Of a stretch of 46,014 nt of DNA, positions 3,818 to 13,207 are shown piece by piece. The position numbers and the translations under genes were made by a program. The DNA is from a virus: IMG/VR virus record IMGVR_UViG_3300049433_000030, positions 1-46,014 of that record. One strand, given 5' to 3'. The notes beneath the pieces were generated by a model. It had not been told where the DNA came from and did no database searches. It saw only the letters and a program-made list of their open reading frames with translations. Each line of letters begins with the position of its first letter. The first letter of the stretch is position 1.

Positions 3818-4203
3818 ATATCTTGAAGTCATTAAAGGGCTGGCTAGTCGACGTGTTTGGTTTTATTCCGCGCAAAGACTACGATTTCGTTCAACGACGT
3901 AGGTGGCAAGCAGAAGACTACAATCGCGTGTTAATTGAGACGCAATCTGCGCTATACGATAGCATCTACTCAAGAAAGTTTAAGTCATTCGAGATGCTAG
4001 CTGATGTTCCTCTCGAAACAATCCAGACGAATGACGTGTTAGTGAATGACGTAAGACTTACTTGGAGCGTCCGGATTCCTCAAATGCGATTCGTGACGTG
4101 TTACGACATCAACAAAGAGATAGAAGATGTAAAGCGATACGTAATCACACGATTGTCCGCCGCTTTCGCGGAGCACATCAGTAAACAAATTTTCAAACAA
4201 TGA
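3814..4203 (+). CDS. hypothetical protein
   Basis: 129 residues from ATG 3814, which overlaps the previous stop (ATGA). A GTG two codons upstream (3808) is an alternative. The N-terminal 25 residues (MNILKSLKGWLVDVFGFIPRK) look like an amphipathic or membrane-touching segment. The remainder is mixed alpha/beta with no motif I recognise. It lies between a membrane protein and the primase with 4-base overlaps on both sides, so it is co-translated with the replication genes. Confidence 0.6.
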   Translation: MNILKSLKGWLVDVFGFIPRKDYDFVQRRRWQAEDYNRVLIETQSALYDSIYSRKFKSFEMLADVPLETIQTNDVLVNDVRLTWSVRIPQMRFVTCYDINKEIEDVKRYVITRLSAAFAEHISKQIFKQ

Positions 4204-6665
4204 CCGCGCAAGAGCTAGCGCAACGCCTCGACGCTAAGCGCAACGGCGAAGGCTGGAAAGCGAAGTGCCCGGCGCACGAAGATCGGACGCCTAGCTTGTC
4301 GATCAAGGAAGGCGACGACGGGCGCGTGCTAGTGCGTTGCTTCGCCGGGTGCGCGCTAGAGGATATAACACGAGCAATGAATATAGAAGTGAAAGATTTA
4401 TTTACAACCCCAAGACAATTCAATAGGGAAGTAGCAGTATCGAAAGATTTGAGCGGCGGCGTGGAAAGCAGACACACTGAGTCGGGTGTAAGCGCACCGG
4501 CCCATTGTAATACTGGCCCGAAAGACGGTGCGCGCAGCGGGAGTAGCGCCCCGCCCGCTCAAATTTCGCCGCTATCGGCGAAGCAAATCGAAGCCGTCGC
4601 TAAGTGGCGCGGTTACTCGCAAGAGCTAGTCGAGTGGCTAAACAAGTTTGGATTGATAGGGCACTTCGAGGGCAACATCGCGTTCCCCGTGCAGAACGGC
4701 GTTCACTTTCGCAAGAAAGACGGTAGCGGCTGGCGCTACACGCAAGGGGCTAAGCCCGACCTGTTCGTTCTCGGAGGCATCGAGGAAGGCGCGCTCGTGC
4801 ATTGCTTCGAGTCGCAATGGGACGCGCTAGCTTACGCCGACGCTAGCGGCGAGCGCACGAACATCGTCGCGACGCGCGGCGCTAGTAATATAAGGCTGCT
4901 AGACAGGTTCCTTAACTTTAGCGGAACGCTTTACCTGTGGCCGCAGAACGATGCGCCGGGGCAGAAATGGGCGCGTGATATAGCTCACGACATTAACTGT
5001 CAGATGAAGCTAGCCAAGATTCCGTCGCCGCACAAGGACTTGAACGAGTGGCGCAAGAACGGCGCTACCGACGGCGACGTATTTAATGCGTTCGTCGACG
5101 CTAAAGATTTCAGTAGCGGACAAGTTGCAACCGGCGAGCACGCGCAAGCCTCTACCGCCGTCGAGACGACCGCTACTGAAAACAATTCTGCCAGCGCTCA
5201 ACCAGGAGAAGACTATAAACTAGCGCCTTCGAGTCCTGCGGGCAAGCCGGTAGCTGACGTAAAGGCAGCTACTAGCACGCAAACACGCGCACCTAATGAG
5301 CAAGCTGAACGGCTGGACAGTGGATGCCAAGCAGAGGCAAGCGAAGCTGTCCGGCCCGAATTTCACGAATCTGTCCCACTAGCAGCAGAGCCGCCCGCGC
5401 CGACACCCGGAGACGCGATACCGTATAGCGGCGCGGAAGTTGCAACCGGCACAGTGGGAGAGAGGGCGTCGGTAGACGGAGGCCCAAAAGTGGCGAAACA
5501 TCCGGAAGTCCTGACACAAAGGAGCGTTGAGCCTGCCCTCTCTAAAACTCTCGACGACACCGTCGCGTTTCTCAAGCGCTACGTCGTCTTCACGCTAGAC
5601 GAGCAAGCCGACGTGCTAGCGCTTTGGGTCGCGCATAGCTGGACGTTCGCGTCGTTCCGCTTCACGCCCTACCTGAACGTCTGCTCGCCGGAGAAACGTT
5701 GCGGCAAGACGAGGCTGCTAGAGTGCATACAGCTACTCGTGCCTAAGCCGCGCGCAATGGTGCGCCCTACTGAGGCGGTGCTCTTTCGCACTATCGAGAA
5801 AGACAAGCCGACGCTTCTACTCGACGAAGTCGACACGATCTACTCTAGCGACGCCGACGACCGTAGCGAAGGACTACGCGCGGTGCTCAACGCCGGATTC
5901 CAGGCGGGGCCGTTCTCAACGATTCCGCGTTGTGTAGGTCACGACCTAACGCCGAAAGATTTCAACGTTTTTTGCCCTAAAGTAATAGCGGGAATTGGTA
6001 AGAATCTGCCGGACACGGTGCGAGACCGCAGTATCGAGATTCGCCTGATTCGTCAACTCGGAGATGAAAAAGCATCGAAGTTCCGCGCTGCAGACGCGGA
6101 AAAAGAAGTCGAGCTAATCCGCGCCGAGCTAGACGCCTGGTCGCGATCTAGCGGAAGTTCGCTAGCTGCGGCTAGGCCGTCGATGCCGCAACAGCTCCAA
6201 GACCGCCAGCAGGACATGATGGAGCCGCTAGTCGCAATCGCCGACGACGCGGGCGGCGAGTGGCCTCAGCGTGCGCGCGACGCGCTAGTCGGACTCGGCG
6301 CTACGCACGAAGATCAGTCGACGGGCGTGCAGCTCCTCGCGGATTGCAGGACTATCTTTGCGGCGATAGGAAGAGACAAGCTAACGAGCGGAGAGCTAAT
6401 TGCACGCCTAGTTGACATAGAATCGGATAACTCGCCTTGGCCTACATGGTGGGAAGGCGATCTAAAGAATAACAAAATTCACTCGCCCGCTCGGAAGCTA
6501 GCGAAATTGCTAGCTCCGTTCGACATCAAGCCTGCAACGGTAAGGATGGGGGCCGGAAAAGATGAGGATGTAGCTAAAGGTTATTATCGAAACCACTTTC
6601 TGGATGCGTGGAAGCGCTACCTAGAACCAGTAAAAGGAATGACAACAATGGAATTAGGATTATGA
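4200..6665 (+). CDS. phage primase-helicase: zinc-binding and TOPRIM-like N-terminus plus DUF3631-type ATPase
   Basis: 821 residues, ATGA overlaps at both ends. The N-terminal zinc-binding primase module has C23, H26 (CPAHEDRTPS) and C47/C51 (RCFAGC). A TOPRIM-like segment follows at about 195-260 (HCFESQWDALAYA ... TLYLWPQNDAPGQ). Residues ~300-440 form a disordered Ala/Pro/Glu-rich linker. From ~440 comes a DUF3631-type ATPase with SPEKRCGKTRLLE (Walker A, ~495), LLLDEVD (Walker B, ~538) and an arginine-containing RDRSIEIRL. It should prime and unwind DNA at the phage replication fork. The linker is bounded by a 14-bp direct repeat (5122-5135 and 5437-5450) exactly 105 codons apart. No separate helicase or DNA polymerase gene is seen in the window. 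Confidence 0.88.
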   Translation: MTAQELAQRLDAKRNGEGWKAKCPAHEDRTPSLSIKEGDDGRVLVRCFAGCALEDITRAMNIEVKDLFTTPRQFNREVAVSKDLSGGVESRHTESGVSAPAHCNTGPKDGARSGSSAPPAQISPLSAKQIEAVAKWRGYSQELVEWLNKFGLIGHFEGNIAFPVQNGVHFRKKDGSGWRYTQGAKPDLFVLGGIEEGALVHCFESQWDALAYADASGERTNIVATRGASNIRLLDRFLNFSGTLYLWPQNDAPGQKWARDIAHDINCQMKLAKIPSPHKDLNEWRKNGATDGDVFNAFVDAKDFSSGQVATGEHAQASTAVETTATENNSASAQPGEDYKLAPSSPAGKPVADVKAATSTQTRAPNEQAERLDSGCQAEASEAVRPEFHESVPLAAEPPAPTPGDAIPYSGAEVATGTVGERASVDGGPKVAKHPEVLTQRSVEPALSKTLDDTVAFLKRYVVFTLDEQADVLALWVAHSWTFASFRFTPYLNVCSPEKRCGKTRLLECIQLLVPKPRAMVRPTEAVLFRTIEKDKPTLLLDEVDTIYSSDADDRSEGLRAVLNAGFQAGPFSTIPRCVGHDLTPKDFNVFCPKVIAGIGKNLPDTVRDRSIEIRLIRQLGDEKASKFRAADAEKEVELIRAELDAWSRSSGSSLAAARPSMPQQLQDRQQDMMEPLVAIADDAGGEWPQRARDALVGLGATHEDQSTGVQLLADCRTIFAAIGRDKLTSGELIARLVDIESDNSPWPTWWEGDLKNNKIHSPARKLAKLLAPFDIKPATVRMGAGKDEDVAKGYYRNHFLDAWKRYLEPVKGMTTMELGL

Positions 6666-10575: not shown

Positions 10576-10916
10576 AGCTCACTGTCGAAGAAAAGGTAAA
10601 GCTCGACCTAGCCCTTAATCTAGGCGAGCTAGCGGCAGCTACCGGCTTTAGCCGCGCCGACCTAGCGAAGCTAGGCATACGCAAGCGCGACTTACCCGGC
10701 GGGCGAATGCGGCGCAGCGACTTCTGGAAGAAGTATCACCGAGGCGAGTTTAGCGCGCCTAAACTAGCGCACGCATCGCTTTCGCCGTTGAATGATCTGC
10801 AGTCAATCGCGGGTAAACTGCGTGCGCCGCGTAGGTCGAGTGACCTACTAGACGCATCACGTCTTCGCGGCGAACGCCCGCTTCGTAGCACCGAGTTACA
10901 AACGTTACCCGCGTAG
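10572..10916 (+). CDS. small HTH-type protein, candidate excisionase
   Basis: 114 residues from ATG 10572. Residues ~17-55 (LNLGELAAATGFSRADLAKLGIRKRDLPGGRMRRSDFWKKY) resemble the MerR-like/excisionase helix-turn-helix in which a wing precedes a conserved R-x-x-D-F. It directly faces the integrase gene and their 3' ends overlap by 158 bases, so its last ~50 residues are antisense to the integrase catalytic C-terminus. Position and fold suggest directionality control of recombination; this is inference. The true protein may be functionally complete before the overlap. Confidence 0.5.
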   Translation: MKLTVEEKVKLDLALNLGELAAATGFSRADLAKLGIRKRDLPGGRMRRSDFWKKYHRGEFSAPKLAHASLSPLNDLQSIAGKLRAPRRSSDLLDASRLRGERPLRSTELQTLPA

Positions 10917-11781
10917 AATGGAAACAGATATGACCAAGCTTCAATTTACGAAAAAAGCGCCACCAGGATTTTCCTGGCATGTCCGGCATCTGAAACGTCT
11001 CCCGCCGTCCCTCCCCTCGAAGCCGCTCGAAGAGGGGTATAAGCTGCGGCGCGAGCGGGAATTCCGCGACGCTGTCCTTGTGACCCTTAGTTCGGAATCG
11101 AATGACGGCCCGCTTCAGATCAACGTCGCTAAGATCGAGGCAGGTTTCACTAAACCGGCAGCCTTGATGCCAAGCGATGAGATAACTCACGAGCATCCAG
11201 TCTGGCTCACTTTTGAGGGCGTTGAGAATCTTCATGTGCTCCGCCTCAGTGATTCGCGGCTTACGCGGAGCGGGATCGAGCGGAATACCGAGGGACTCGA
11301 CGGGATTGATGCTAGCGAAGCCGGACATAACGGCCTCCCTCATGCCCATCCTGAGAAACTTCACTTCTGTGAGCGCCGTGTTCTTAGTTACTTCGTAACA
11401 CCCGAAGGAACTATGACGTTCCTGACGCCACTTAATGAAGCTTCGGACGTGCTGCCGCGTGAGCTGCCGAGGGATTACGATACTCTGCGAATCAAAGAAC
11501 GCTTTGATATTGCGCCACGCGCTCGTAAAGCGCGCGTAGCTTTTCGGCGAATTGGCGTAGCGCTGCTCGAAATACTGCGGAAGCCACGCTTCCCACACTT
11601 CGCTAGCGTCGCTTCCGTCGCGCTCCGAAGCGGAGACTTCGCGGCACAGCTCGCGCGCGCGGCGCGTGTCGGCGGTGACGGCGTGTCGAAATTTCGTCGA
11701 TTTTTGGACGCGTTTACCGGACGTGTCGATGCAGCTAATCCACCAAAACGGGGAGCGAGGGCGCTTGTAAAGAGAGGCCAT
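10759..11781 (-). CDS. int: tyrosine-type site-specific integrase
   Basis: 340 residues from ATG at 11781, beginning MASLYKRPRSPFWWIS, a typical start for this class. It has an N-terminal arm-binding and SAM-like core-binding region (to ~170) and a catalytic domain with R209 (GCRFSE), Lys in the TKGHK beta-hairpin (~232-235), H288-x-x-R291 (HSTR), H314 (LVGHS) and nucleophile Y323 (AVYPRL). All catalytic residues are present. It is the only minus-strand gene inside a run of early plus-strand genes, and its start lies 2 bases from the divergent 11784 gene. attP is at 12111-12137, upstream of its start. No clear Shine-Dalgarno. Confidence 0.93.
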   Translation of the reverse strand: MASLYKRPRSPFWWISCIDTSGKRVQKSTKFRHAVTADTRRARELCREVSASERDGSDASEVWEAWLPQYFEQRYANSPKSYARFTSAWRNIKAFFDSQSIVIPRQLTRQHVRSFIKWRQERHSSFGCYEVTKNTALTEVKFLRMGMREAVMSGFASINPVESLGIPLDPAPRKPRITEAEHMKILNALKSEPDWMLVSYLIAWHQGCRFSETCLDLSDVDLKRAVIRFRTKGHKDSVAEFPLAPQLIPLFERLRGEGRRETFQMPDMPGKSWWRFFRKLKLGHICFHSTRVTFVTRCYEAGVRREDVMRLVGHSTYAAHAVYPRLTADHSTAKAMRALV

Positions 11782-11783
11782 TT

Positions 11784-12038
11784 ATGAAAATACGCTGTAA
11801 GGAATGCAACTGGGAAGGCGTATTAGAACAGGTTCTTGAGGCGAAGCATCCATTTCAAGATCAAGTCCTAATATATGGTTGCCCGAAATGCCTAGAAGCC
11901 GAGCCATTTGAGACTTTATGTGATGAACCGGGTTGCCGAGACATCTATAGCTGCGGAACTCCGTCACCATCTGGATACCGCCAAACATGCCACAAACATA
12001 TTCCAATAGTGTCACATAGTGTAGAAGGGCGTCAATAA
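11784..12038 (+). CDS. zinc-ribbon phage protein
   Basis: 84 residues from ATG 11784, with GAGAGG 7 bases upstream inside the antisense integrase start. Cysteine pairs CKEC (4-8 region), CPKC, C..PGC and C..C (residues ~5-70) suggest one or two zinc knuckles. MKIRCKECNWEG ... GCPKCLEAEPFETLCDEPGC matches a family of small phage proteins seen beside integrase or recombination genes. Divergent from int with only 2 bases between start codons, so each gene's control signals must lie within the other's coding sequence. The leftmost attP arm repeats fall in its 3' end. Confidence 0.65.
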   Translation: MKIRCKECNWEGVLEQVLEAKHPFQDQVLIYGCPKCLEAEPFETLCDEPGCRDIYSCGTPSPSGYRQTCHKHIPIVSHSVEGRQ

Positions 12039-12040
12039 AA

Positions 12041-13207
12041 ATGAACGAAAATTTTGAACTCCCCTGCGAAACTGACGCAAATTGTGCAACACCTGATGCA
12101 CAATCTCGACATGCGGGTTCGATTCCCGCTGCCCGCTTAGCCTCAGAATCAAGCACTTATGAAAGTAGTGTAGAAGAGAGTGTAGAAACGAGCGCCGTGC
12201 CTGCGCTGGCCGAGCCAATAACGCAGCGGGACGAAACGCCCGCTATGATAGCCCGCGATGGGCTGATAACGGGATCGCATCCCGATTCGGACGTTGGCGG
12301 CGAAGCGCGAGAAGCGACGGATAATTCCGGCAGGGAAAGACTGACTGTCGGGATACTGGAATCTCGCGGCGGCGCTCCTCTCTCCACTCTCGCTACCGAG
12401 TCCGGGCATTGGTATCTCCCCGACGGAACGCCGTTCTACACCTACGTCAACGACGACGGCGAGACGAAGCCCGTAACGCTGCGCGAAGCTCGCAAGGTTA
12501 ACGCCTTTCCGAGCACTACGACCGTCGGTAAAATTCTCGAAAAGCCAGCGCTCAATAATTACTCCGAGAAGCACGTCTTTGAAGCGACTCTCCGACTGCT
12601 GACCGAAGAAGTAAATTTAGGCGTCAAGGCAATTTTGGACGACGAGAATCTACGCGCCGAGTTTTTCGCGCGCGTAAAAGTCGCCGCTAACGAGCATCGC
12701 GACAAAGCCGCTAATCGCGGTTCGTCGTTGCACGGCGAAATCGAGCGCTACCTGCGCGGCGAGAAACTCTACGAGCCGGAACGATGGTGGCCGCACGTCG
12801 ACGAGCTAGTGAAGGCGCTAGCTCAATACGGCGTCGACGTGCACAAAGGATCTCCGGAGAAATGCTTCGCGCACCGCCTGGGATATGGCGGAAAGGTCGA
12901 CTGGCACGAGCGCACCGACCCGCTAGTTATCGACATCAAGACCAAACCGGAAATCGAGCTAAACAGCAAGGGTAATCCGAAGAAAAAGCTGGTCTACGAC
13001 GAGCACTTTATGCAGATCGCGTCGTATCGCACCGGACTAGCGATGCCGAACGCGCGCGGAATTAACGTTTTCGTCGGCGAAGCAGATCGGCGCATCTGGA
13101 TTCACGAACACACACCAAGCGACCTTAATCGCGGCTGGAAGCTATTCGAGCTACTGCTGCGCGTTTGGAAAATCAAAAACAACTACTACCCAAAAATAAA
13201 CCAATGA
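12041..13207 (+). CDS. PD-(D/E)XK-type nuclease (RecB/Cas4-like exonuclease family), gene carrying attP
   Basis: 388 residues from ATG 12041, or 320 from in-frame ATG 12245. The first ~100 residues are low-complexity and contain the attP core (residues 24-33). The conserved part starts near SGHWYLPDGTPFYTYV (~residue 125). It has RGSSLHGEIERYL (helical H-motif, ~226) and a catalytic region GYGGKVDWHE ... PLVIDIKTK ... EHFMQIASYRTGL, matching D, DxK and QxxxY of the superfamily. It probably processes DNA ends for recombination or replication. In a lysogen the gene would be cut at attP, leaving the domain downstream of the host tRNA. ATGA overlap to the next gene. Confidence 0.8.
   Translation: MNENFELPCETDANCATPDAQSRHAGSIPAARLASESSTYESSVEESVETSAVPALAEPITQRDETPAMIARDGLITGSHPDSDVGGEAREATDNSGRERLTVGILESRGGAPLSTLATESGHWYLPDGTPFYTYVNDDGETKPVTLREARKVNAFPSTTTVGKILEKPALNNYSEKHVFEATLRLLTEEVNLGVKAILDDENLRAEFFARVKVAANEHRDKAANRGSSLHGEIERYLRGEKLYEPERWWPHVDELVKALAQYGVDVHKGSPEKCFAHRLGYGGKVDWHERTDPLVIDIKTKPEIELNSKGNPKKKLVYDEHFMQIASYRTGLAMPNARGINVFVGEADRRIWIHEHTPSDLNRGWKLFELLLRVWKIKNNYYPKINQ
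12081..12104. promoter_or_regulatory. inverted repeat next to the att core, containing the TTGTGCAAC operator motif
   Basis: ATTGTGCA (12081-12088) and TGCACAAT (12097-12104) are perfect 8-bp inverted arms around an 8-base loop. The left arm continues as TTGTGCAAC, the motif seen at other phage promoters. It could be an operator, an integrase/excisionase accessory site or an RNA hairpin in the leader of the nuclease gene. Confidence 0.5.
12111..12137 (+). other. attP: attP core: 3' end of a tRNA gene, best fit tRNA-Gly(UCC)
   Basis: GCGGG-TTCGATT-CCCGC (12113-12129) is a complete T-arm with stem and TTCGATT loop, followed by TGCCCGC and T (12130-12137), the 3' acceptor strand and discriminator. 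No matching 5' half exists nearby, so it is a tRNA fragment, not a gene. From memory the 27 bases equal the end of an enterobacterial glyT-type tRNA-Gly(UCC). Identity with a tRNA 3' end beside an integrase is the hallmark of attP. Confidence 0.82.

Follow-up and report, generated by a model that had tools for sequence, protein, structure and literature searches.

A predicted paired-arm attachment site at a tRNA-Gly fragment, located between a lambda-like tyrosine integrase gene and the conserved core of a phage exonuclease

Analysis of a 46,014-nt stretch of viral DNA (positions 1 to 46,014 of IMG/VR record IMGVR_UViG_3300049433_000030, hereafter the window) indicated that the segment 12008-12187 is likely the phage attachment site (attP) of a lambda-like tyrosine integrase, and that the neighboring PD-(D/E)XK-like exonuclease keeps an intact core that starts beyond attP. 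The putative site consists of three elements. The T-arm and acceptor strand of a tRNA at 12113-12137 (GCGGGTTCGATTCCCGCTGCCCGCT) stand without the 5' half of the tRNA, AGTGT units start at 12008, 12018, 12167 and 12179, all on the + strand, and an intact integrase gene on the opposite strand (10759-11781) starts 331 bp from the core. A preliminary description of this DNA had noticed all three elements, each of which was recovered here, the unit at 12008 being degenerate beyond AGTGT.

The core sequence is identical at 27/27 positions (12111-12137) to the annotated 3' end of a tRNA-Gly gene of E. coli with the anticodon TCC, and 5370 of 5426 E. coli genomes contain a match to it. Within the core, the inverted-repeat stem of the T-arm encloses the 7-nt T loop. 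ARAGORN detected no complete tRNA in the window, and the record has a single Rfam tRNA match, to the T-arm piece itself (12112-12129), which scores 13.8 bits and is below the cut-off. The host probably possesses a tRNA-Gly(UCC) with the sequence of the core, a sequence that E. coli and many prophage records contain. As the 27-mer is not found in 145 Verrucomicrobiota genomes, nor a 25-mer of it in 149 Planctomycetota genomes, members of these two phyla are unlikely hosts. The exact core followed by TTA had no match in viral contigs.

The integrase is composed of an N-terminal arm-binding domain, a core-binding domain and a catalytic domain. The predicted structure has an arm-binding fold of b-b-b-a topology at residues 3-52, and its best fold match in the PDB is full-length lambda Int. 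The catalytic residues R209, K232, H288, R291, H314 and Y323 (R-K-H-R-H-Y) are invariant among 24 aligned members. A tblastn search at 1e-5 found no relatives among 50,697 catalogued phage records, a plasmid search gave weak matches only, and single-protein viral scans yielded nothing or one distant partial match. An alignment-based scan revealed relatives in 31 viral contigs, ~26 of them full-length; further relatives were found in a Verrucomicrobia metagenome-assembled genome and in a second Verrucomicrobiota genome. The relatives total ~28, a number that near-duplicate contigs bring nearer to 16 independent cases.

A T-arm plus acceptor fragment is present upstream of int, at -115 to -168, in 23 of the 26 phage relatives and also in L021, against a background of 0.022 tRNA T-arm fragments per kb over all loci. 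The contigs L107 and L118 stop at or before the site, and L017 starts within the T-arm. The fragment has the opposite orientation in L103 and L125. L105 appears to carry a piece of a tRNA 5' half in reverse orientation, ~100-135 bp upstream of int, in place of the 3' T-arm. The targeted tRNA differs between members of the lineage (L103-L128, L021), and the layout of attP is constant.

Integration was captured in one relative, the phage of locus L108. Its record, G392, contains the core twice, ~33 kb apart between 10851 and 43929, and thus harbors a ~33-kb prophage. At one junction (L136), int, the first repeat pair and the core are followed by the host tRNA-Glu; at the other (L137), a complete tRNA-Cys precedes the second repeat pair, after which comes the next phage gene. 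The attP state of the relative is represented by L134, with the int side, the core and the second repeat pair. The host flank of the prophage shares 94% identity with a 2.7-Mb Verrucomicrobiota genome (G116) that has an empty attB, in which tRNA-Cys adjoins tRNA-Glu. As attP, attL, attR and the empty attB were all found, integration in this lineage takes place at the tRNA fragment and restores a complete tRNA. This set, together with the ~28 integrase relatives, strongly supports the proposal of the preliminary description that the window contains an attP, flanked on each side by arm sites, that targets tRNA-Gly(UCC).

One might also take the tRNA piece for a decayed phage-encoded tRNA or a chance resemblance, with no attachment site at all. 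The 27-mer does occur in phage records at a distance from int, HK639 for example, and 78 of the 80 IMG/VR loci with the 27-mer core have a full tRNA-Gly. Yet the position of the fragment relative to int and to both arm pairs is conserved while the tRNA species and the arm sequence change, and integration at the equivalent fragment is demonstrated in a relative, which makes such an origin extremely unlikely.

Further analysis of the repeats supports the assignment as attP. The exact unit AGTGTAGAA is present in three copies in 46 kb, every one beside the core, compared to 0.20 expected, and none of 100 shuffles gave three copies. Direct repeats flank the core fragment in the 14 cassettes scanned, namely the window and 13 relatives. 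Repeat pairs are located at -94/-85 and +53/+65 from the T-arm start in L113, L116, L117 and L120, and near these positions in L104, L109, L114 and L121. The window, with pairs at the offsets listed in Table 1, maintains the arm-core spacing, its first pair being shifted 10-11 bp, close to one turn of the helix. The repeat itself varies from phage to phage (AGTGTAGC, AGTGTAGGG, AGTGTCAC, TGGCCACAA, CGTAGTAAA, GTGAGAAAA, ATGCAGGAAA and others), AGTGTCAC being the full arm unit of L120 and TGGCCACAA forming the arms of L121. The motifs were picked by eye from printed sequences; the repeats within each phage are observed, and the register between phages is approximate.

The members with AGTGT arms are the closest to the window over integrase residues 1-48, at 0.44-0.54 compared to 0.21-0.42 in the others, and their core-binding domains show no special similarity to that of the window. 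Across 15 members, the similarity of the arm sequences tracks the identity of the integrase N-terminus (r 0.61). Once the other two domains are accounted for, the N-terminal 48 residues keep a partial r of 0.46 (permutation p 0.001), and neither the core-binding nor the catalytic domain adds to the correlation. Altogether, the covariation of the arms with the integrase N-terminus, the conserved geometry and the predicted arm-binding fold make a good case for the repeats as arm sites, to which the N-terminal domain would bind.

Two further repeat elements lie in the segment that separates the first arm pair from the core. In the window, an inverted repeat (ATTGTGCAACA/TGATGCACAAT) at 12081-12104, which is not obvious in the relatives, is possibly a site for a directionality factor or for integration host factor. 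In L104, L116 and L120, CAGAGAAAACC-like units are repeated in this region and are possible excisionase sites.

Table 1. Predicted features of the integrase-attP-nuclease region of the window. Offsets are relative to the T-arm start.
Feature	Position	Strand	Description
Tyrosine integrase, 340 aa	10759-11781	-	PF00589, PF13102 (SAM-like domain); phrog_1 E 2e-37
Zn-ribbon-like small protein gene	11784-12038	+	C-terminal CDEPGC..CGTP..GYR.TC module
Predicted arm site 1a, degenerate (AGTGTCACA)	12008-12016	+	-105; relatives mostly -92 to -94
Predicted arm site 1b (AGTGTAGAA)	12018-12026	+	-95; relatives mostly -82 to -85
Predicted attP core	12111-12137	+	T-arm and acceptor strand of tRNA-Gly(UCC)
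Predicted arm site 2a (AGTGTAGAA)	12167-12175	+	+54; most relatives +53 to +57
Predicted arm site 2b (AGTGTAGAA)	12179-12187	+	+66; most relatives +65 to +69
Unconserved N-terminal extension of nuclease frame	12041-12388	+	Contains core and second arm pair
Alternative in-frame start GTG	12197-12199	+	Beyond attP
Alternative in-frame start ATG	12245-12247	+	Beyond attP; 107 nt after tRNA end
Conserved nuclease domain, PD-(D/E)XK-like phage exonuclease	12389-13207	+	phrog_298 E 4e-16; 85 homologues

Several observations weigh against a working attP in the window. The distance from int to the core is 331 bp, compared to 91-143 bp in the relatives, the extra length being that of the Zn-ribbon-like gene, and the first arm pair is ~230 bp farther from int. 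The unit at 12008 (AGTGTCACA) fits only 6 of 9 positions. The core stops at the discriminator base without CCA, which the cores of the relatives often include. No lysogen or sister phage of the window phage was found; the attL and attR that the preliminary description looked to came to light for the relative, at tRNA-Cys, and not for the window phage. The added gene, the imperfect unit and the missing lysogen would fit a degraded or relocated attP that no longer works, in a phage that is not temperate or persists only as an episome. This we regard as quite improbable, as three arm units and the core are exact, the integrase is intact, and the spacing between arms and core is maintained apart from the shift of about one turn.

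The preliminary description had placed attP inside the 5' coding region of the nuclease gene. An open frame indeed runs without a stop from ATG 12041 to 13207 across the core, but as a gene it probably does not include the site. The conserved nuclease, in which D287, D298 and K300 are invariant, begins at ~12389, ~250 bp past the core. In the homologues inspected among the 85 collected, the start is typically 0-12 codons ahead of the conserved domain, and the 116-residue extension was not seen. The start codons of the window are 48 (ATG 12245), 64 (GTG 12197) and 116 (ATG 12041) codons ahead of this domain; no ATG, GTG or TTG lies within 48 codons of it, unlike in the homologues. Nuclease residues 6-120 are predicted to be disordered, with a predicted local distance difference test score (pLDDT) <50 that is lowered by construction for the extension, which has no homologues in the alignment; the remainder folds well. 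In the relatives, the gene that follows arm pair two begins 60-110 nt past the tRNA end, and a strong Shine-Dalgarno sequence accompanies most of these starts; in the window, ATG 12245 and GTG 12197 are at +107 and +59, respectively. Judged from these features, the nuclease gene probably starts past attP, at GTG 12197 or ATG 12245, and the frame from ATG 12041 through attP is most likely fortuitous or encodes a dispensable tail.

The preliminary description went further and proposed that integration cuts a functional nuclease gene and thereby acts as a state switch. Integration would indeed cut ATG 12041 off from the remainder of the frame. In a fuller form of such a switch, the lytic phage would use ATG 12041, coupled to the Zn-ribbon-like gene, and make a nuclease with a 116-residue tail, whereas the lysogen would make a short form from ATG 12245 or GTG 12197 behind the promoter of the host tRNA. 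Such an integration-dependent nuclease has a precedent in the mycobacteriophage repressors, in which attP within a gene leads to state-dependent products (PMC4557955). In its favor, the frame 12041-12244 has the top coding score of the six frames, a weakly positive 0.106 bits per codon. ATG 12041 is 2 nt after the stop of the Zn-ribbon-like gene and has a moderate Shine-Dalgarno match, not surpassed by those of 12197 and 12245.

None of these signals separates the candidate starts. Compared to real coding stretches, 0.106 bits per codon is at the 1st-5th percentile; compared to wrong frames, it is near the 99th. Codon statistics are borderline in 12041-12244 and equally low in 12245-12388, a segment that is necessarily coding with any listed ATG, GTG or TTG start, and therefore do not decide the start; nor do the Shine-Dalgarno scores distinguish 12041, 12197 and 12245. 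In L114 the frame of the neighboring gene is open across attP, though its primase-like protein starts at +90, which makes an uninterrupted frame across the site a weak indication of coding. Such a frame also comes cheaply at a tRNA end, because no + frame of the tRNA end has a stop. A scan for promoters found no signal beyond chance level. With the extension missing in the homologues inspected and predicted to be disordered, and the conserved core present in both states, we consider a nuclease switch unlikely, and the cutting of a functional nuclease is not borne out, in-frame starts being available past the arms. It is equally doubtful that the attP sequence is translated within a 116-residue tail during lytic growth and that the prophage, having lost this tail and its promoter on integration, makes a shorter nuclease or none. 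The 5' end of the nuclease may still differ between the two states. If true, an integration-dependent switch would act on a recombination nuclease instead of a repressor.

Other starts were considered. The non-canonical codon CTG 12341 has a good Shine-Dalgarno match and was judged unlikely. With the E. coli tRNA-Gly as a stand-in for the host gene, the nuclease frame runs back to an ATG in the D arm of the tRNA, which was not taken as the start because tRNA transcripts are processed.

A point missed by the preliminary description is the separate small gene between the integrase and the site. The Cys module of its product is shared with a protein of a Bradyrhizobium phage (51%, E 5e-7), and the gene is not present in the int-attP interval of the relatives. 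In the relatives the first arm pair is at or beside the int start. In the window the small gene intervenes; therefore, any autoregulation of int via the arm sites would be lost. The third-position GC is 0.37-0.41 for 11784-12244, compared to 0.59 for genes, which together with the codon use of int suggests a foreign origin of the integration module. In the Bradyrhizobium phage the Zn-ribbon-like gene is followed by a 392-aa gene; a link of the nuclease to it was tested and rejected.

The present analysis provides a model for integration at this site. We infer that the N-terminal domain of the integrase would bind DNA at two direct-repeat sites per side (12008/12018 and 12167/12179), and that the core-binding and catalytic domains would work on the T-arm at 12111-12137, presumably with the crossover in the T loop. 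The partner would be the 3' end of a tRNA-Gly(UCC) gene, in a host predicted from the core. Of the two resulting junctions, one would contain the rebuilt tRNA, the second arm pair and the nuclease, and the other the integrase, the Zn-ribbon-like gene, the first arm pair and the tRNA fragment. The nuclease core would be encoded in both the integrated and the free state, presumably from one of the two start codons past attP. Most likely, the native start of the nuclease was displaced when an integration module inserted ahead of the gene.

Elsewhere in the window, a single protein encoded at 4200-6665 combines a CHC2-like zinc finger, Toprim and DUF3631 domains of a primase, and a phage protein encoded at 589-2604 has a VWA/CoxE-like domain. 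Apart from the primase, the other genes of the window show no synteny with the nuclease loci.

A short literature search found no published description of this integrase lineage, for which an attachment module is now defined in environmental phages and Verrucomicrobiota genomes. Compared to lambda Int/attP and other heterobivalent tyrosine integrases, for example the Int-Y systems of mycobacteriophages, it has the same three-domain integrase with an arm-binding N-terminus, arms that flank the core, and a tRNA 3' end as attB with the tRNA rebuilt at one junction. Paired arm-type sites around a tRNA core are usual in phage Int-Y systems (PMC10865867). The window integrase differs in being distant in sequence from catalogued phages, and its lineage in having two same-direction arm pairs that keep their offsets and vary in sequence from member to member. 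Since the arms change with the N-terminal domain within a constant layout, one may be able to read arm-site recognition from the sequence and to test it by swapping domains. The 27-bp core is identical to the tRNA-Gly(UCC) prophage insertion site of Proteobacteria, but none of the 80 IMG/VR loci with this core has an integrase of the window lineage (best E 6e-5).

The nuclease shares its conserved core and catalytic motif with the phrog_298 exonucleases of Stenotrophomonas phage S72 and aquatic phages, and differs from them in the distance of its nearest start codon. In BPs and its relatives, which show integration-dependent immunity, attP likewise lies within an open reading frame, and integration changes what the frame encodes; in BPs the gene altered is the repressor (PMC4557955). 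By contrast, integration at the window site would alter the 5' end of a frame for an exonuclease-family protein, not an immunity repressor, in an unconserved and predicted-disordered tail with alternative starts downstream. A frame open through attP is by itself no evidence of a gene switch. Membership of the BPs type appears doubtful, and by its arms, core and integrase the window attP would belong with the paired-arm, tRNA-core Int-Y systems.
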